The position numbers were made by a program, and so were the translations under genes. The notes under the pieces are model-generated. The model had not been told where the DNA came from and made no database searches. It was given only the letters and a program-made list of their open reading frames with translations. DNA of 64,000 bases. Origin: Acidimicrobiia bacterium. Its GTDB lineage: Bacteria; Actinomycetota; Acidimicrobiia; Spongiisociales; ZC4RG35. Below, one piece after another: positions 4,568-42,412 of the stretch. The stretch spans positions 1 to 64,000 of the forward strand of contig JANQRA010000003.1 of NCBI GenBank assembly GCA_028284765.1, written 5' to 3'. Each line of letters opens with the position of its first letter. The stretch's first letter is position 1.

Positions 4568-5431
4568 TCAATCATCAGTGAGGAGTAGCCCCATCGGATC
4601 GATCCGGTCAATTTCGGGGTCGTCTGCCAACAGGTTCCGCGCCTCATCGGTGAGGCGTCCCTCAGCGCTGGCGTGAACGTATTCGACTACAGGTTCTCCG
4701 GAGAAGACCGCTATCCGGTAGCGCTTGTTGTCGCCGCTCTCGGTCTTGATGCGCGGTTTCAGGTAGGCGCTCGCGAAGCGCTCCTGGTCGAGTGGTGAGG
4801 TCTTGCCGAACAGCCTGGCGACATACGCACTCTCAAGCAGGAATCTGATTCTGAAGATGCTCACGTGGTGTGACAGAGCGAACCGGTGGCTACCGAACCA
4901 TCTGAAATCCTCCGCAGGCTCTTCGCTCCCGATCGGTCCTGAGTTGAGCCGGATGTCTTCCATGTCGTCTACGAACGGCTGCTTCCCGAGTTTCAGGCAG
5001 TCGATCTCATGGCTTTCGATCATTCCCATCAACTCGTCAATTAGTTCTTGTCGGAGTGGACGAGTGAGCCACATGTCCTCCTGGAGATAGAACACGTATT
5101 CGAAGCCAAAGGACTCGAGTCGTCGGAGAGAGGTGATCAACCGACTCACATATGTGCCGGGTCCCGTCGTCATCGCTTCCACTCGACCGGGGGAGTAGGG
5201 GATCGTCTCGCTGGCGAAGTAGATGGGAACCGATGTAGGCACGCTCGCCATGGTGTAGTGAACCGCTGGCGACCAGAACCTCTGATAGCCATCGAAGCTA
5301 TGGACTAGGACCGCGATCCGCTTGCTCGGGTCGGGTCTTGGGAGGAACCTGAGGCCGCTGCGGGTCAACGACCAAGCCAGAGTTCTAGTTGAGTCCTTTG
5401 CCGAGCGGGCCACGTGGTTGAGGCTCTTCAT
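4568..5431 (-). CDS. Putative glycosyltransferase-like protein, paralogue 2
   Basis: A 287-residue protein with the same order of motifs as the gene at 3677: AVLVHSFDGYQRFWSP, PIYFASETIP, EYVFYLQEDMW, HRFALSHHVSIFR and RIAVFSGEPVVEYVHAS. The pair most simply arose by tandem duplication. The hydrophobic strand ending in QED is compatible with a GT-A-type fold, which is an inference. Its ATG at 5431 overlaps the TGA of the double-GT8 gene (ATGA), so the three genes form one coupled operon that probably builds or decorates a surface glycan, or glycosylates a product of the nearby cluster. Confidence 0.65.
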   Translation of the reverse strand: MKSLNHVARSAKDSTRTLAWSLTRSGLRFLPRPDPSKRIAVLVHSFDGYQRFWSPAVHYTMASVPTSVPIYFASETIPYSPGRVEAMTTGPGTYVSRLITSLRRLESFGFEYVFYLQEDMWLTRPLRQELIDELMGMIESHEIDCLKLGKQPFVDDMEDIRLNSGPIGSEEPAEDFRWFGSHRFALSHHVSIFRIRFLLESAYVARLFGKTSPLDQERFASAYLKPRIKTESGDNKRYRIAVFSGEPVVEYVHASAEGRLTDEARNLLADDPEIDRIDPMGLLLTDD

Positions 5432-7287
5432 TTTCGCCTGAGCGCTTTGCTCAACTTCTTCCTGCGGAGAACAACGGAGTAGGGCGCAAGGGTCTCAATC
5501 AGTGCGGGTCGAAGCCGATACCTGTCGGGCTTGATCTCCCATCCAATGCTCTCGGCCGCCCTCTGATACTCGCGACCAAACGGTGATCCCCAGGGTCGTG
5601 AGGTCCACGGCTTGGTTGGGCCTTTGTAGTGCACGATGTGCGTCTCCCACGAGAGACGATCGAGGCGTAGGCCGGGCCAATTCCATTTGCTCCAGTCCAG
5701 CGGGAGCCATTCCTTCCAGAGCACGACATTGAGTAGGTCCTGGTCGGCCAACACAAAGGAGTCGGGCACATTGTGTGCCATCAGCCTGGTTCCAACAGAA
5801 TCGCTGCGCCAACGCTCCATGTCGATGGCAAGCACGCCGGAGTTGAAGTACGCCACAGCGTCTGGAATCGGAGAGTCGGCGAGAAAGTCATGGCTGGGAG
5901 CCTGGGCCATTCCCCAGGATTGCCTTCCGCGATGAAGCGGGTTGGGCTCTTCGATACACGCCGCGAAGACTCGCCCTTCGAGGTCCAAGCCGAAGAGTGG
6001 GGCGATCGTTTTCCGCGTCAGGGTGTCTGCATCGACATAGACGACTCGGCCGAGATGATCCGGTAGGAGCTCGGCGATGCCGATCCTTGCCCAGGCAGCC
6101 GGGGGCATTTGCGGAGGCAGGTCTCTGGTGAATGCGGTCGCATCGACCACTTCAACCCGCCTTGGCTCGAGCACGCCCTTGATGCGCTCGATTGAGGCTT
6201 TGGAGAGGTCGACACCGAGGACGTACGCCGGGGTGTCCGAAGGCGAGTGCTCCAGGGCCGTCTTGGCCGCCACCAAACCGGGCATCAGGTAGTGCTCATC
6301 GAAGGCAACGACCAGGGCCCTCGCTCCGTCCCCATCGTTGCCAGGACGTGACGTCGCTGGCGGAGCCGATGCGGGACCTCTGCCAACTCTTCTTGCGATC
6401 CTCTTTCTGCGGAGCACCAGCGAGTACGGAGCGAACGTCTCAATCAGTCCACTCTGGACTCGCTCTCTCTTCGGTTCAGGCTCCCATCCAAGACTCTTGG
6501 CTGCCGCGAGGTATTCGCCACGAAACGGGGACCCCAGCGGCTGACTGAGCCAGGGCTTGGGGGAGTCGACGTAGTGGACGACGTGGCTGTCCCAAGCGTC
6601 GGCGTCTTTGAGGTATCCGGGCCAGTTCCAGGTTTGCCATTCGATCGGTAGCCAGTCTTCGGCCAACTCTTGGTTCATCGCATCCTGGTCGAGCAAGAAG
6701 TACGCCTCGGGCAGGTTCGCGGCGATCGAGAACAGCCGACTCTCGACTCCGCTTTCCCGCCACCGCTGGAGGTCGATCGACATGACGCCGGTGTTGAAGT
6801 ACCCGTAGACGTCGGGCACTTGGCTGCTCGCCGCGTAGGAGTGTGTCGAGTCTGGACTCTGTCCCCACTCGTGCCGGGCCCGGTGTGTCGGCATCGGCAC
6901 CTCGAGGCAAGCTGCAAGGGTTCTGCCCTCCAGGTCGAGGTCGAAGAGGGGCTCTAAGTCGCCCCGGGTGAATGTGTCAGCGTCGAGGTAGAGCGCCCGC
7001 TCTATCCGATTGGGGAGCATCGACCCGATCCCGATTCGCGCCCACGCAGCGTTAGATATGTGGCTCCACTCAGGGAAGGCGTCGGCGAAGTCGGCCGCGT
7101 CCAGAATCGTCGTGCGGGACTCGGGGGTTCGCTTCTGGATCTCTCTGATCGCTTCGGGTGAGAGGTCCACGCCCAGAACGAACAACTCCACATCTTCTGG
7201 AGAGTTCTGAAGGCCCGTCACGACCGCCAGGAGTCCCGGCATGAGGTAGTTCTCGTCGAAGGCGGTGACGATGGCGCGTGTTGACAT
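5428..7287 (-). CDS. Glycosyltransferase with two tandem GT8 domains
   Basis: A 619-residue protein made of two homologous GT8 (glycogenin/LgtC-like) domains, about 1-290 and 322-619, joined by a Pro/Ala/Gly-rich linker (about 300-320). Each has the GT8 metal motif DAD (YLDADT, D102/D104; YVDADT, D419/D421), the middle motif (YFNTGVMSIDL; YFNSGVLAIDM), the DQD motif and the C-terminal HYxxxxKPW motif. Both therefore look active and would transfer a sugar from a UDP-sugar with retention. The open frame runs upstream through both tRNA genes, so that extension is rejected. ATG 7287, or GTG 7290 with TACACT just upstream, is the likely start. It leads the three-gene glycosyltransferase operon. 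Confidence 0.85.
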   Translation of the reverse strand: MSTRAIVTAFDENYLMPGLLAVVTGLQNSPEDVELFVLGVDLSPEAIREIQKRTPESRTTILDAADFADAFPEWSHISNAAWARIGIGSMLPNRIERALYLDADTFTRGDLEPLFDLDLEGRTLAACLEVPMPTHRARHEWGQSPDSTHSYAASSQVPDVYGYFNTGVMSIDLQRWRESGVESRLFSIAANLPEAYFLLDQDAMNQELAEDWLPIEWQTWNWPGYLKDADAWDSHVVHYVDSPKPWLSQPLGSPFRGEYLAAAKSLGWEPEPKRERVQSGLIETFAPYSLVLRRKRIARRVGRGPASAPPATSRPGNDGDGARALVVAFDEHYLMPGLVAAKTALEHSPSDTPAYVLGVDLSKASIERIKGVLEPRRVEVVDATAFTRDLPPQMPPAAWARIGIAELLPDHLGRVVYVDADTLTRKTIAPLFGLDLEGRVFAACIEEPNPLHRGRQSWGMAQAPSHDFLADSPIPDAVAYFNSGVLAIDMERWRSDSVGTRLMAHNVPDSFVLADQDLLNVVLWKEWLPLDWSKWNWPGLRLDRLSWETHIVHYKGPTKPWTSRPWGSPFGREYQRAAESIGWEIKPDRYRLRPALIETLAPYSVVLRRKKLSKALRRK

Positions 7288-34387: not shown

Positions 34388-37072
34388 ATGACATTTTTTG
34401 CACGACAGTTCGGCCGCCGCACGATTGCGTTGCCGCTTGCCGCCGCACTTCTCCTGGGCCCGACGGCAGCAGTGTTCGCGGCGCAACTTCCACACCCCGG
34501 CTCCAATCTGTTCATCCAGACTTCGGGGCCTGGTGCTGGGCTCAACATTGGCGACTACCACACATCGCCGGCGGGCGGGAACACCGATCACCGGTTCATA
34601 GTGCGAGTGCCCTCGAACTGGCCAGCCGGTGAACTCGTAACTGTCTCGCTCTACGACCCAGAGCTCGCGGGGCCCGACCCATCGTCTCCAGCCGCGAGGG
34701 ACGAGGTTCGTGGTGGAGCCGATTCTGCGAGTTTCACACTCGCGGCGCCCGCCGGAGCCGTCATCGCAGCCGCCACTTACGCGGACGCTTCGACCAATGG
34801 TGCCTGGGCCCATCTCGCCACGTTCGATCCAGGCACACATGGCACCGGCACTTACGAGCTCCGCGTGACCGTGTCGGACAACGATGACAACTCGTGGCGG
34901 CTGGATGCTTCGTACGATCCTGACTGCGTCGTCGGTGGCCCCGGAACATGCACGGGCGTTGTCGATGGAGACGAGAGTGACACTGCGCCGTCCGGCTCGA
35001 GCCGCATTGGCCTAGCCGTGCTCCGCACTAGCTACCAGCACGGAACCGGTGGAAGCCAATGCCAGGACCATGTTTTCTATGTCAGTTCTGCCACACCCCG
35101 ACCTCTCCGCGCCCACAACTTCGACATGGACAACAGCGGGTCGGTCACCTACACCGATCCAAATGGTGTCGATCATGCAGGCACGGTTTCGGCCAACGGT
35201 CGTTGGAACAACTCACCGGACGCCAACCGAGTTGGTGATGTTCTGGCTGATGTGAGCGGGTGGTGGAACGCACAGGTCTGCATTTCGAGCAACAACCAAT
35301 ATGTCTTCGAGGCGCCCGGGGCGAGCCCGACTTTCGCCGAGCCGCAACCAGAACCACGCCTGACGATCACCAAGTCTGACGGGGTAGAGACCGCTGTCGT
35401 CGGCGACTCCCTCACCTATGACGTCGTCGTCACGAACGTCTCGGACACGGATCCCCTTCCGGACGAAGCGTTCAACGTTGTCGTAACCGACACGCTTCCG
35501 GCTGGTCTGGTGTTCGTCAGTTGCTCGGGTGCCGGCTTCACTTGCACCGAGGCTGCTGGGGTTGTGACTGCCGAGCTCAACGATGAGCTCGCCCCGGCCG
35601 GTTCGGCGACGATCTCGATCGAGACCGAGATCGACCCCAACGCGACCCCGACCGTCACCAATGAAGCGACCGTTTCTTATGAGGATCGGCTCGGCTTCGC
35701 TCTTCCCCATGAGACGGCTTCGGATTCGGTCGACATCGACTTCATGCCGGAGATCCGTGTCGTCCCGACCGGACCTAGCGCAGTTCTCAGGGGCGATCTC
35801 ATCGTGACCACTTTCGTCGTGTCACATGCTGAAGCCTCGGACCTTTCGCCGGTCTACTCGCCCGAATTCAGCTGTGTCGCATGCGACACGGTCGGATATG
35901 TGGATGGGGATGCCAACTCCAACGGTGTTCTCGACGCTGGGGAAGCATGGACATACGAGACCTCCGTTTCGACCGATGGCTCGACACCCGATCCGCTGTC
36001 GGTCGTTGGAGAGGCGAGCGGTCTCGACGGCAACGATGAGGCGGTAGACGCCACCGCAGAGCACGTCGTGGACATCGTCGAGCCCGGCACTGTCACCGGA
36101 AACGTATTCGAAGACCTGAACGGCAACGGTTTCCTCGATGCGGGCGAGCCTGGAATAGATGACGCCGAGTTGACCCTCTCTGACGGAGTCGGCACGCTCG
36201 GGACGACTCTCCCCACCGATGGTGGCTACGTCTTTGACCACCTGTTCCCAGGGGTTTACGCAGTCACCATCGATGAGAGCGCCCTTCCGATAGGCCTCTC
36301 TAACACCGCGGCGCCTTTACCGGCGACGCTGGCAGAGGGCGGTGCCGTCACTGGCCTCGACTTTGGATACGCCTACCCAGCGACGATCGCCGGGAGCGTC
36401 TTCGAGGATGGTGACTTCAGCGGCTCACTCGACGCTGCCGAGCTTGGTCTCCAGTCAATCGAAGTGACGCTGTTCGACGGCAATGGCCATCCAATGGCCA
36501 CGACGATGACCGATGCCCTGGGCAACTTCTCATTCATGACCATGCCCGGCAACGTCTCGGTTGGCGTGACCGGAGGAATGCCCGACGGATGGGCCTTCAC
36601 TACCGACGACGTGCTCTCACTCGGCTTGATCACCTCCGGTAGTTCGGTCGCCGCTGCACCGATCGGCCTCGCGAATCGCCCGCCGGAGATCCTCGAATCT
36701 TCACAAACGATTGACCGGGGTACACCGCCGGATCGGATTCCTGCCGCAGATCCCGAGGGTGAGGACGTCACTTTCAGACTCTCAGCCGGCGAGCTCCCCC
36801 TGGGTCTGACACTGGAGGCTGACGGGACTTTCAGCGGCGATGCCACGACCACCGGTGTCTACAACCTTCAGCTCGAGCTTTGCGACACCGGAGACCCGAC
36901 GGCATGCGCCACATACGACTGGCAGTTGAACGTCGTCGAGCCACCGCCATCGGTTCAAGGTGTTGATTCGCTCCCCTTCACAGGAGCAGAGTCCGGTCCA
37001 CTTGCCGCCACTGCGATCCTTCTTCTAGCGGCGGGCGCAGGAGTGGTGTGGACGGCTCAGCGGGCTGATTGA
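34388..37072 (+). CDS. LPxTG-anchored surface protein with DUF11 and SdrD B-like domains
   Basis: An 894-residue exported protein. The signal peptide (AAVFAAQLP) would be cut near residue 31. Residues 35-320 form an undefined region with a Cys-rich loop. A DUF11 repeat covers about 324-435 (LTITKSDGVETAVVGDSLTY...ETEIDPNATP), with a second beta domain to about 555. Two SdrD B-like domains follow (VTGNVFEDLNGNGFLDAGEPG; IAGSVFEDGDFSGSLDAAEL). A putative Ig/He_PIG domain covers about 765-850. The end has LPFTG at 862-866, a hydrophobic span and a short basic tail, the sortase signal. No sortase gene is in the window. The GGAGG at 34369 is better placed for an out-of-frame ATG at 34381. Confidence 0.87.
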   Translation: MTFFARQFGRRTIALPLAAALLLGPTAAVFAAQLPHPGSNLFIQTSGPGAGLNIGDYHTSPAGGNTDHRFIVRVPSNWPAGELVTVSLYDPELAGPDPSSPAARDEVRGGADSASFTLAAPAGAVIAAATYADASTNGAWAHLATFDPGTHGTGTYELRVTVSDNDDNSWRLDASYDPDCVVGGPGTCTGVVDGDESDTAPSGSSRIGLAVLRTSYQHGTGGSQCQDHVFYVSSATPRPLRAHNFDMDNSGSVTYTDPNGVDHAGTVSANGRWNNSPDANRVGDVLADVSGWWNAQVCISSNNQYVFEAPGASPTFAEPQPEPRLTITKSDGVETAVVGDSLTYDVVVTNVSDTDPLPDEAFNVVVTDTLPAGLVFVSCSGAGFTCTEAAGVVTAELNDELAPAGSATISIETEIDPNATPTVTNEATVSYEDRLGFALPHETASDSVDIDFMPEIRVVPTGPSAVLRGDLIVTTFVVSHAEASDLSPVYSPEFSCVACDTVGYVDGDANSNGVLDAGEAWTYETSVSTDGSTPDPLSVVGEASGLDGNDEAVDATAEHVVDIVEPGTVTGNVFEDLNGNGFLDAGEPGIDDAELTLSDGVGTLGTTLPTDGGYVFDHLFPGVYAVTIDESALPIGLSNTAAPLPATLAEGGAVTGLDFGYAYPATIAGSVFEDGDFSGSLDAAELGLQSIEVTLFDGNGHPMATTMTDALGNFSFMTMPGNVSVGVTGGMPDGWAFTTDDVLSLGLITSGSSVAAAPIGLANRPPEILESSQTIDRGTPPDRIPAADPEGEDVTFRLSAGELPLGLTLEADGTFSGDATTTGVYNLQLELCDTGDPTACATYDWQLNVVEPPPSVQGVDSLPFTGAESGPLAATAILLLAAGAGVVWTAQRAD

Positions 37073-39501: not shown

Positions 39502-41307
39502 GTGTCGAACATCCGGTTTGGAATCAGCCATCTACCTCCCGATGACGGGGACGACGCTGAGTTCCTCGACGGGTTGGTAGCCGACGGACACAGGGCGTTG
39601 GAACTGCCGTTCACCGATGGGTTTCCGTGGAAGCAGAAGCGATGTGAGTCCTTTGCGGCTCTCGCCACAGAACGTGACATCCGGCTCTCGGTACACGCCC
39701 CGTACTTCGCTGGTCTCACCATTCCGGACGAAGACCGTGGGAAGCAATCGGTCTATGCCATGGAACACACCATGAAACTGGGGAACTGGTTGGGTGCCCC
39801 CGTCATCGTCGCCCACTTTGGGGCCACCTATGACGAGGACCCGTCCGTGCTCATGGACCGAATCCGATCACGTCTCGACTTCATTGGCCCAAAGGTCGAG
39901 CATCTGGGCGTCGGACTTGGGCTCGAGACTGCAGGAAAGAAGAGTGCGTTTGGATCACTCGGTGACATCGCCCAACTCGCCTCTGAGTTCACGTTCGTCC
40001 GTCCCGTGGTCGATTGGGCTCACGTTCACGCCATGACCGGCGGGGCTCTGACCTCCAAAGACGCTTTTGCCTCTGTCCTGGCTTTCATCACGGACAGCTT
40101 CCCCGGATGGATGATTCAACCCCTCCAGGTTCAGTTCTCCGACAACCAGTTCAGCGATGCGGGCGAGATTCGGCATGTCGCATATGGCGAGGGGACATTG
40201 CGGGTCGGCCCTCTGGTCGAGGCAACCCTCGAGGCGGAGATGTCGATGGTCTTGATTTCGGAAGCCAGAGATATGGACAGTCATGGACTGATCTGGGATG
40301 AAGTCCAGGAGATCCTTGCCACGACACCTGCCTCAGCTGAGAGTCGTCCTTTGAGCAATCGAGACTCATATCCATCTCCGGTTCGGGTGATCAAAGACGG
40401 AGATCGCTTCTCACCCGTAAAGGTGGACAGACCAATCACGTTCTCGAACATCGACAAGGTGTTCTTCCCTGATGAGGGGTTCACCAAGGGTGACCTGATT
40501 CAGTACTACACGTCGGTTGGCCCGATGCTGTTGCCGCACTTGGAGGGCCGACCTCTATCCATGTCCCGCTACCCGGATGGCATCGATGGTCAGTCTTTCT
40601 ACGAGAAGAGGGCTCCAGGGCATCAGCCCGATTGGATGCGGACAACCTCTGTCGTCTCGGACAGTCAGGGTGGAACGGTTGACTTCCTAATGGCTGACTC
40701 GGTCGAGTCGCTCATGTGGTTCGCCAATATGGGGTGTATAGAAGTGCATCCGTTTCACTCGACCGTGCGGAGTCTCGAATCGCCCACGTATGCCATCTTC
40801 GATTTCGACCCGGCTGAAGGCTCAACCTGGGACCAGGTGTGTGGTGCCGCCCAACTCTTGAATGTGGCGCTCAAGCAGCTTGGCCTCGAGGGGTATCCCA
40901 AGTTGTCTGGTTCGAAAGGCCTGCACGTCTACGTACCGCTCGAACCGGTTCACGACTTCGCACGAGTTCGCCGGTTCGTCGGAGAAGTAGGTGAATATCT
41001 GGCCGCAGCCAACCCGGGCGACGTCACGATGGAGTGGGACAAGCCCAAGAGGAAGGGGAAGGTGTTCGTCGATCACAACCGAAACGCCTCGGGCCAAACC
41101 GTGGCCTCGGTCTACTCAGTCCGCCCCCGACCCGGGGCCCCTGTCGCAATCCCGCTGTTGTGGGACGAGGTTGGTTCTGTTGCAAACAGCGATTTCACGA
41201 TCAACAACGTTTGGGGACGACTGCAGCGCTACGGAGATCTTTTCGCTCCGGTTCTAAAGGGTGGGCAGACGCTCGACGCCGCTGAGTCGGCGTTGGGAAT
41301 CTCGTAA
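39502..41307 (+). CDS. Endonuclease IV-like / LigD polymerase-domain fusion protein
   Basis: A 601-residue protein with two DNA-repair-type domains. Residues 1-275 form an endonuclease IV-like TIM barrel; metal ligands H65 (VHAPYF), H105 (VAHFGA), E142 (LGLETAG), D171 and H174 (DWAHVHA), H225 (IRHVAYG) and E254 (ISEARD) can be matched, while two usual ligands appear replaced by Q211 and I223. Residues 305-601 form a LigD-type primase-polymerase domain with FSNIDKVFFP, NMGCIEVHPFHS, the DxD pair D434/D436 (IFDFDPAEG), SGSKGLHVYVPL and D524 (VFVDHNRNASG). No ligase or nuclease domain of LigD and no Ku gene is seen. GTG 39502 follows the hydrolase stop by 3 bp. Confidence 0.88.
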   Translation: MSNIRFGISHLPPDDGDDAEFLDGLVADGHRALELPFTDGFPWKQKRCESFAALATERDIRLSVHAPYFAGLTIPDEDRGKQSVYAMEHTMKLGNWLGAPVIVAHFGATYDEDPSVLMDRIRSRLDFIGPKVEHLGVGLGLETAGKKSAFGSLGDIAQLASEFTFVRPVVDWAHVHAMTGGALTSKDAFASVLAFITDSFPGWMIQPLQVQFSDNQFSDAGEIRHVAYGEGTLRVGPLVEATLEAEMSMVLISEARDMDSHGLIWDEVQEILATTPASAESRPLSNRDSYPSPVRVIKDGDRFSPVKVDRPITFSNIDKVFFPDEGFTKGDLIQYYTSVGPMLLPHLEGRPLSMSRYPDGIDGQSFYEKRAPGHQPDWMRTTSVVSDSQGGTVDFLMADSVESLMWFANMGCIEVHPFHSTVRSLESPTYAIFDFDPAEGSTWDQVCGAAQLLNVALKQLGLEGYPKLSGSKGLHVYVPLEPVHDFARVRRFVGEVGEYLAAANPGDVTMEWDKPKRKGKVFVDHNRNASGQTVASVYSVRPRPGAPVAIPLLWDEVGSVANSDFTINNVWGRLQRYGDLFAPVLKGGQTLDAAESALGIS

Positions 41308-41341: not shown

Positions 41342-42412
41342 ATGGACATTTATGCCCGCATCAACATTCTCGGCGGGCTTTCGGTCCGTCTACCGCATGG
41401 CGGACTCGATGAGGCGATAGCTCTCGACAACGACCCCATCGGACGTGCCAAGGGATGGGCCAAGCAGGGCGTCGACTACATGCACATCGTCGATCTCGAT
41501 GCCGCCGCTTACGGCGACTACCAAAATCGTGGCCTAATCAACGAGCTGATCGAGGAACTCAGGATCCCTGTCCAGGTTGCTGGTGGTATCAGGTCGGAAG
41601 GCGAAGCCGAGCGGCTGATTCAGGCTGGAGCCTGGCGAATTGTCATGGGTACGGCAGCCATTGAGAACCAGCTAATGGTCTGGGATCTCTGTCGTGAGTT
41701 TCCCGAGAAGATCGTGGTTGAGCTCGACGTGACTCCTGAGGAGGAGATCGCGACCAGGGGTTGGACGTACAACAGCGGGCGTTTCCTCGAAGAAGTGCTC
41801 ATCGAGATGTCTGCTGCCGGGGCGGTTGCTTTCTTCGTTGGCGAGGTCGGTCGGGATGCACTCGAAGAACCGCCGAACTTCGGAATCCTTGCCGAGTCGC
41901 TGAGCACGGTCGATGACCCGGTGATTGCAGCGGGTGGGGTCCGCAATCTGGAGGATCTGAGGAGACTGGTCCAACTCGAAGCCGCGGGCCGTCGTCTCAG
42001 CGGTGTTGTAGTAGGACGAGAAGTCACCGCAGGGCGATTTACCGTCGAGGAAGCGAGACAGGTGCTCGACGGTGGTGGTCCCATGCAGGCACCCGGCGGC
42101 GTGACCGCGACACGAACCTCGGTCGGAGTCTCTTCTCTTGAAGCGGCGCTCGAGTTCTATCGGGATGCGCTCGGGTTTTCACATCTCCGTTCGGCTTCTG
42201 ATGGCGTGAGCGCAGCCGTGGTCGAAGCGGGGCCGGGTCAGCATCTCGAGTTGGTCGAGGGCGGAACCTCACGACCCGATTCCCTTGCTTTCAGCGTCGA
42301 GGAGCCAGATCGCTGGAAAGACCACCTGGCAAACCTAGGGATACCCTCCTCGGCCGACGAGGACGGATTGGTTGTCGTCGATCCGGACGGCCTCCGGATC
42401 GTTCTTGAATAG
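41342..42412 (+). CDS. HisA-like isomerase fused to a VOC (glyoxalase-like) domain
   Basis: A 356-residue protein. Residues 1-243 form a HisA/PriA-type barrel: VDLDAAAYGDYQNR, VQVAGGIRSEGEAERL, WRIVMGTAAIEN, ELDVTPEEEIATRGW and IAAGGVRNLEDL, with phosphate-binding VVVGREVTAGRF. HisA isomerises ProFAR in histidine synthesis using two aspartates. The second (D129) is present. At the first, the expected Asp is Asn8 (YARINILGG). Residues 250-356 form a VOC half-barrel domain (TSVGVSSLEAALEFYRDALG; VVVDPDGLRIVLE). It is therefore a divergent, possibly re-purposed HisA. No other his gene is near. Confidence 0.8.
   Translation: MDIYARINILGGLSVRLPHGGLDEAIALDNDPIGRAKGWAKQGVDYMHIVDLDAAAYGDYQNRGLINELIEELRIPVQVAGGIRSEGEAERLIQAGAWRIVMGTAAIENQLMVWDLCREFPEKIVVELDVTPEEEIATRGWTYNSGRFLEEVLIEMSAAGAVAFFVGEVGRDALEEPPNFGILAESLSTVDDPVIAAGGVRNLEDLRRLVQLEAAGRRLSGVVVGREVTAGRFTVEEARQVLDGGGPMQAPGGVTATRTSVGVSSLEAALEFYRDALGFSHLRSASDGVSAAVVEAGPGQHLELVEGGTSRPDSLAFSVEEPDRWKDHLANLGIPSSADEDGLVVVDPDGLRIVLE

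Follow-up and report, generated by a model that had tools for sequence, protein, structure and literature searches.

A natural fusion of an Endonuclease IV-like barrel with a LigD-type primase-polymerase in Actinomycetota and its association with Ku

Known pairings of end processing and gap filling

Bacterial PolX combines AP-endonuclease activity with gap filling in one protein, and the DNA end passes from one molecule to another (PMC6616362). In a review, the modules of LigD are given as a polymerase (POL), a phosphoesterase (PE) and a ligase (LIG) (PMC8656161). Cooperation between separate proteins has also been described. When mycobacterial LigC, Prim-PolC and Endonuclease IV (Endo IV) were combined in a reconstitution, Endo IV performed best among the nucleases (PMC5663958). 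In B. subtilis, LigD and the Endo IV enzyme Nfo both help spores to survive vacuum desiccation (PMC4770248).

The protein described here is encoded in a stretch of 64,000 nucleotides from an Acidimicrobiia bacterium (assembly GCA_028284765.1, contig JANQRA010000003.1, positions 1 to 64,000; hereafter the window). It joins an Endo IV-like barrel to a LigD-type POL and resembles each of the above systems in part. As in PolX, a gap-filling polymerase is predicted to be combined with a multi-metal domain of the AP-endonuclease/3'-phosphatase type, and a separate ligase would be needed (PMC6616362). However, PolX consists of a Pol beta-like core and a PHP domain, whereas in the fusion an Endo IV-type barrel is linked to an AEP primase-polymerase. 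For the mechanism proposed below, PolX is the nearest working analogue. With LigD, the fusion shares the POL family, the joining of a 3'-end-healing type of domain to POL and the presence of Ku in nearly all carriers. It differs in containing neither LIG nor PE, and the Endo IV-like barrel sits where the PE would be. In the mycobacterial complex, Endo IV and a LigD-family POL likewise work on one gap, as is proposed for the fusion (PMC5663958), but there the proteins are separate and the POL belongs to the Prim-PolC clade, outside of which the fused POL falls. The genome of the window has its own Prim-PolC and LigC-like genes besides the fusion. Both parts of the fusion belong to, or stand beside, known families. 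Their combination is unreported in the literature searched (subscription papers were outside its scope), where no earlier description of an Endo IV-POL fusion was found.

Gene and domain layout

The gene (39502..41307, + strand, stop included) is read in one open frame of 601 codons without an internal stop. Its GTG start lies 3 bases past the point where an upstream alpha/beta hydrolase gene ends. The first domain of the 601-aa protein is the Endo IV-like TIM barrel (residues 3-276; 39508..40329, +), supported by Pfam AP_endonuc_2 and the AlphaFold2 (AF2) model. A poorly conserved linker (residues 277-309; 40330..40428, +) leads to the LigD-type primase-polymerase (residues 310-585; 40429..41256, +), which is supported by Pfam LigD_Prim-Pol and by structural matches in VIA. 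Both domains pass their Pfam cut-offs: AP_endonuc_2 (PF01261) matches residues 29-270 with E 3.4e-24 (86.3 bits, cut-off 31.1) and LigD_Prim-Pol (PF21686) residues 328-581 with E 1.5e-90 (303.7 bits, cut-off 27.4). Among the NCBIfam models, ligD_pol (TIGR02778) is matched above its cut-off (256 versus 214.7 bits) and the model for whole LigD (TIGR02776) below it. Neither a LigD phosphoesterase (LigD_N) nor a ligase domain was found in the protein with Pfam. The full-length AF2 model, built from 35 natural fusions, has a mean pLDDT of 89.8 and a pTM of 0.83.

The first-pass annotation, made from the letters of the window, had already read the two domains in one frame and had noted the absence of the ligase and phosphoesterase domains; both readings hold. 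A missed frameshift or stop between the domains and a chimeric assembly are ruled out. All 37 other loci that were long enough to check are free of stops within the matched stretch, and the genome itself is 98% complete.

The next gene downstream (41342-42412, +) codes for an isomerase of the HisA type (PF00977, 3-228) that carries a glyoxalase/VOC domain at its C terminus (259-353, a weak match). Homologues of this hisA-VOC gene adjoin the fusion in eight loci of the order, seven of them from the window's own family. An aldehyde dehydrogenase gene is found near the fusion in seven loci. A gene for a 5'-3' exonuclease of the FEN type (PF02739/PF01367) is located within a few kb of the fusion in seven other loci (L145, L148, L149, L153, L154, L157 and L161), and in at least two of these a rhodanese-like gene stands between exonuclease and fusion. 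These shared neighbours are too weak a signal to build a functional case on. Elsewhere in the window, the gene at 34388-37072 (+) encodes a secreted-looking protein of 894 aa with repeated stretches of the surface-protein type and a C-terminal LPFTG followed by a hydrophobic tail, by which it resembles a sortase substrate.

The barrel is a relative of Endonuclease IV

The superfamily of the barrel holds both Endo IV and sugar enzymes, and the barrel is nearer to the former. With an HMM built from the barrel, all 16 proteins with Nfo motifs outscored every other AP_endonuc_2 protein (30 loci compared), and the profile of the barrel matched that of Nfo with E 3e-15 in a profile-profile comparison (hhalign). 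The AF2 model of the isolated barrel (pLDDT 90.9) was used for the structural searches. In VIA, 14 of the top 15 rows were Endo IV-type AP endonucleases (Z 23.8-25.7), and the remaining row was the uncharacterised MJ1311 (Z 24.3). The named sugar isomerases reached a Z of at most 22.9, as against up to 25.7 for Endo IV, though the Endo IV of M. tuberculosis and the AP endonuclease of African swine fever virus scored lower as well (Z about 22). In Foldseek, most Endo IV chains had a TM-score of 0.76-0.79, the best matches 0.77-0.79, and the epimerases mostly of 0.56-0.68; Foldseek E-values by themselves fail to part Endo IV from the sugar isomerases. For this model, the structural margin of Endo IV over the sugar isomerases is real, if not large. 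A barrel of the sugar-isomerase type, which the first reading had named as an alternative, is ruled out by the HMM ranking together with the Z values and TM-scores.

With Nfo, the barrel shares the fold, the HAPY, HxG, DxxH and H..xGxG motifs and most of the metal ligands. It differs in its fusion to POL, in an identity of about 15-22% and in matching the nfo model (TIGR00587) weakly, at 33.6 bits and thus far below the cut-off of 129.65. In the tree, the barrel family, with its fused, reversed and stand-alone members, is split from Nfo by long branches (100/100). Judged from these sequence comparisons, the barrel belongs to a family that is sister to Endo IV; it is no orthologue of Nfo, though it might function as Nfo does. 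A canonical Nfo (contig C18) and an ExoIII-type protein (C10) are also encoded in the genome of the window. In close pairs of sequences, dN/dS ranges from 0.03 to 0.31 in the barrel and from 0.04 to 0.18 in POL, low values that indicate purifying selection on both halves; in most pairs, the barrel evolves faster than POL.

The metal ligands were assigned from MAFFT and hhalign alignments of 43 family sequences. Nine residues are invariant in all 43, namely H65, H105, E142, D171, H174, H176, E222, H225 and E254. H65 (39694..39696, +), H105 (39814..39816, +) and E142 (39925..39927, +) are the equivalents of H69, H109 and E145 of Endo IV. D171 and H174 (40012..40023, +) make up the DxxH motif and correspond to D179 and H182. 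In the stretch E222-I-R-H225 (40165..40176, +), H225 corresponds to H231. E254 (40261..40263, +) is a plausible counterpart of E261, from which it is offset by two positions when the sequences are aligned.

These seven residues had been recognised as ligands in the first-pass annotation, and they stand. The two positions that it had taken as altered, Q211 and I223, were placed in the wrong register. Both alignments put residue 209 (40126..40128, +), and not residue 211, in the column of Endo IV H216. Residue 209 is Gln in this copy; among the 26 other members from the order it is His in 15 and Gln in 11, and it is His in all outgroup members (families f70, f74, f77 and f78). Residue 211 is Gln or His across the family. 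Endo IV D229 aligns with E222 in MAFFT, by way of a one-residue insertion, and with I223 in hhalign. Since E222 never varies whereas position 223 may be I, V, L, T or K in the 43 sequences, E222 is the likelier ligand. It probably replaces D229, and the loss of an acid at this site is doubtful. Seven ligands therefore lie at matching or near-matching positions, with an ambiguous register at E222 and E254, and eight of the nine Endo IV ligand positions probably have a conserved counterpart, the eighth being E222. The earlier suggestion that the barrel holds two metals instead of three is left unsupported, because it rested on misregistered positions, E222 is invariant and the H216 column is mostly His.

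The polymerase domain

The catalytic residues of POL are complete. The DxD motif (D434/D436; 40801..40809, +), H475 (40924..40926, +) and the third catalytic Asp, D524 (41071..41073, +), are unchanged in all 38 sequences compared, which bears out the impression of an intact domain gained from the window. N316, K319 and K329 align with N13, K16 and K26 of the 5'-phosphate pocket of the M. tuberculosis LigD POL, in which the lysines bind the 5'-phosphate. Both lysines of the fusion (K319 to K329; 40456..40488, +) are invariant.

The structures of LigD POLs and Prim-PolC match the fused POL with VIA Z values of 33-37 overall. The nearest are the NHEJ polymerase of Methanocella (36.9) and the Prim-PolC of M. 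smegmatis (36.1), which are tied, followed by the M. tuberculosis LigD POL (34.8). The POL tree rules out that the domain is a Prim-PolC orthologue: fused POLs from the order and from families f74/f77 form one group (92/86) that lies outside the Prim-PolC clade, and the M. smegmatis Prim-PolC falls beside the stand-alone POL that this genome encodes on contig C7 (100/99), apart from the fusion. One loop of Prim-PolC, Loop 3 (residues 313-333), suits it to short gaps (PMC7442782). The structural match ends at chain residue 308, short of this loop, and the fused POL seems to have no counterpart. The top-scoring non-fused relative of the fused POL is a LigD POL from an f78 genome (L188).

Distribution and origin of the fusion

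A scan of genome contigs returned 46 loci with relatives in public genomes, mostly in records named Acidimicrobiia. The full-length fusion is present in 27 of the 36 sampled genomes of the window's order. Elsewhere in the class it was found in none of the genomes among the 148 sampled, where matches are confined to the POL part. In a second class, families f74 and f77 carry the fusion in the same domain order in seven of eight genomes, and family f42 of that class in none of 16. In family f70, whose genomes measure about 1.5 Mb, the domains are arranged the other way round: POL (30-281) precedes the barrel (347-593) in a protein of 600 aa. In family f78, the barrel occurs as a stand-alone protein; these copies (L099-L105) have HAPL or HAPI instead of HAPY and keep the ligand-type residues.

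One reversed gene, in the f70 genome G354 (L098:5393-7194, +), consists of two frames that overlap (5393-6160 and 6157-7194). Two sister genomes have the gene whole, and the split may be a sequencing error or real. No viral copies of the fusion were confirmed, and the best matches among those listed for plasmids are of the LigD type.

The pairing of the two domains is thus conserved in relatives, a point that the first reading had left to be checked. Because it recurs in three separate actinobacterial lineages and in both domain orders, it is very likely that barrel and POL cooperate in repairing DNA. A single origin of all fused POLs, including those of f70, is compatible with the tree test (p-AU 0.215). 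From the sequences, one fusion followed by a reversal and separate fusions are both possible.

Ku, ligases and LigD parts in the carrier genomes

A search of the genome of the window for Ku and a separate ATP-dependent ligase, as had been suggested at first reading, found both. One Ku (C5) and three ATP-dependent ligases (C5, C7 and C22) are encoded, together with two further stand-alone POLs (C7 and C22); neither a LigD phosphoesterase domain nor a complete LigD was found in this genome. On C22 (L052:1812-3308 and 5824-6726), the very divergent stand-alone POL (300 aa) and an ATP-dependent ligase of LigB size are about 2.5 kb apart. In genomes G062 and G074, a POL is also found near a ligase of similar size.

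Across the 36 genomes of the order, Ku is present in 25 of the 27 with the fusion versus two of the nine without it (Fisher p 1.4e-4). Shared ancestry was handled by a count per genus only, in which 18 of 19 genera with the fusion have Ku versus two of eight without (p 6e-4). All nine carriers outside the order have Ku as well. The two genomes of the order with Ku and without the fusion have LigD genes with PE and POL in one frame, one of them PE-LIG-POL by Pfam. In three carriers (G001, G109 and G125), Ku is accompanied by one ligase, no POL other than the fusion was found, and a search for PE domains found none. Altogether, 21 of the 27 carriers in the order are without any PE domain. The carriers in f70, f74 and f77 mostly have PE domains as well, and a strict replacement of PE by the barrel is unsupported outside the order. 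The two exceptions to the association with Ku are sister genomes of family f5 (G034 and G058), which retain an intact fusion; searches of both for Ku, ATP-dependent ligases, PE and further POLs found none. The fusion gene is not adjacent to Ku or a ligase, and no operon with either was found.

Proposed function and alternatives

On balance, the fusion is probably a repair enzyme with two active sites that cleans a DNA end and fills in, relies on a separate ligase and serves mainly Ku-dependent end joining, possibly also excision repair. We infer both activities, the substrate, the order of the steps and the nucleotide preference as follows. The Endo IV-like metallo-barrel would cut 5' of an abasic site and generate a clean 3'-OH. 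Alternatively, it would strip a 3'-blocking remnant (a phosphate, a phosphoglycolate or a damaged nucleotide) to yield the 3'-OH. The 3' end would then be handed to POL, which would grip the downstream 5'-phosphate across the gap and insert one or a few nucleotides, probably with a preference for ribonucleotides. Sealing would be left to a separate ligase. In most carriers, the enzyme would thereby combine the roles of the PE and POL of LigD in one protein; a role in short-patch excision repair may exist as well. End joining is the more likely main role because the fusion is associated with Ku. It counts against this reading that the fusion is not the sole provider in the window's genome, which has the two stand-alone POLs and the canonical Nfo. 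The distance of the gene from Ku and ligase genes, the f5 genomes, the PE domains of most carriers outside the order, the Gln at the H216 column of this copy and the ambiguous register at two other ligand positions also weigh against it. Excision repair stays possible because of the f5 exception and the precedents of LigC/Prim-PolC/Endo IV and of LigD with Nfo.

A bolder version of the end-joining reading can be put forward tentatively. Ku, a stand-alone ligase and the fusion may replace LigD and so represent a third bacterial design of end joining, with the barrel in place of PE, that arose as members of these two families were joined repeatedly, in either order. If this were true, Ku, ligase and fusion would form the entire pathway in G001, G109 and G125.

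The enzyme could instead work mainly in base-excision repair, where it would incise abasic sites and fill in a single nucleotide in the manner of PolX, with LigA or LigC as the ligase and the co-occurrence with Ku reflecting only a shared lifestyle. This is rather unlikely but has several observations on its side. PolX unites AP-endonuclease/3'-phosphatase and gap filling in one protein (PMC6616362), Endo IV was the best nuclease for gap filling by Prim-PolC in vitro (PMC5663958), the conserved 5'-phosphate lysines fit gaps, and two genomes with an intact fusion lack both Ku and an ATP-dependent ligase. However, the association with Ku is strong in the order and all other carriers have Ku. Furthermore, with a canonical Nfo and an ExoIII-type protein in the genome, the incision of AP sites needs no second enzyme, and Loop 3, which suits Prim-PolC to short gaps, seemingly has no counterpart in the fusion.

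It is improbable that the barrel is no longer a nuclease and merely positions POL as a DNA- or protein-binding module, its residues being kept for a metal-dependent structure. The Gln at one ligand column in this copy, the faster evolution of the barrel relative to POL in most pairs and its deep branching apart from Nfo would fit such a role. Against it, eight ligand-type positions are invariant in 43 sequences with identities down to 30%, the stand-alone and reversed members included.

That the substrate of the barrel is a non-DNA phosphodiester or a sugar, as with CbiR or the sugar epimerases of the superfamily, and that it was joined to POL incidentally is hardly credible: 10 of 25 family members do match the model of CbiR (a cobamide phosphodiesterase) weakly, AP_endonuc_2 includes many sugar isomerases and f78 has the barrel by itself, but the pairing with POL is found in three lineages and two domain orders, and Endo IV is the nearest family by HMM and by structure.

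Implications for bacterial DNA repair

So far, cooperation of Endo IV with a LigD-type polymerase has been suggested for separate proteins only, in the mycobacterial LigC complex and for the LigD of B. subtilis with Nfo. A natural fusion that occurs in both orders and tracks Ku provides independent evolutionary evidence for this link between Endo IV and POL. As one small protein, it also allows end cleaning and fill-in to be tested jointly. If the barrel stands in for the phosphoesterase of LigD, unrelated enzymes would have solved the problem of end healing in bacterial end joining.
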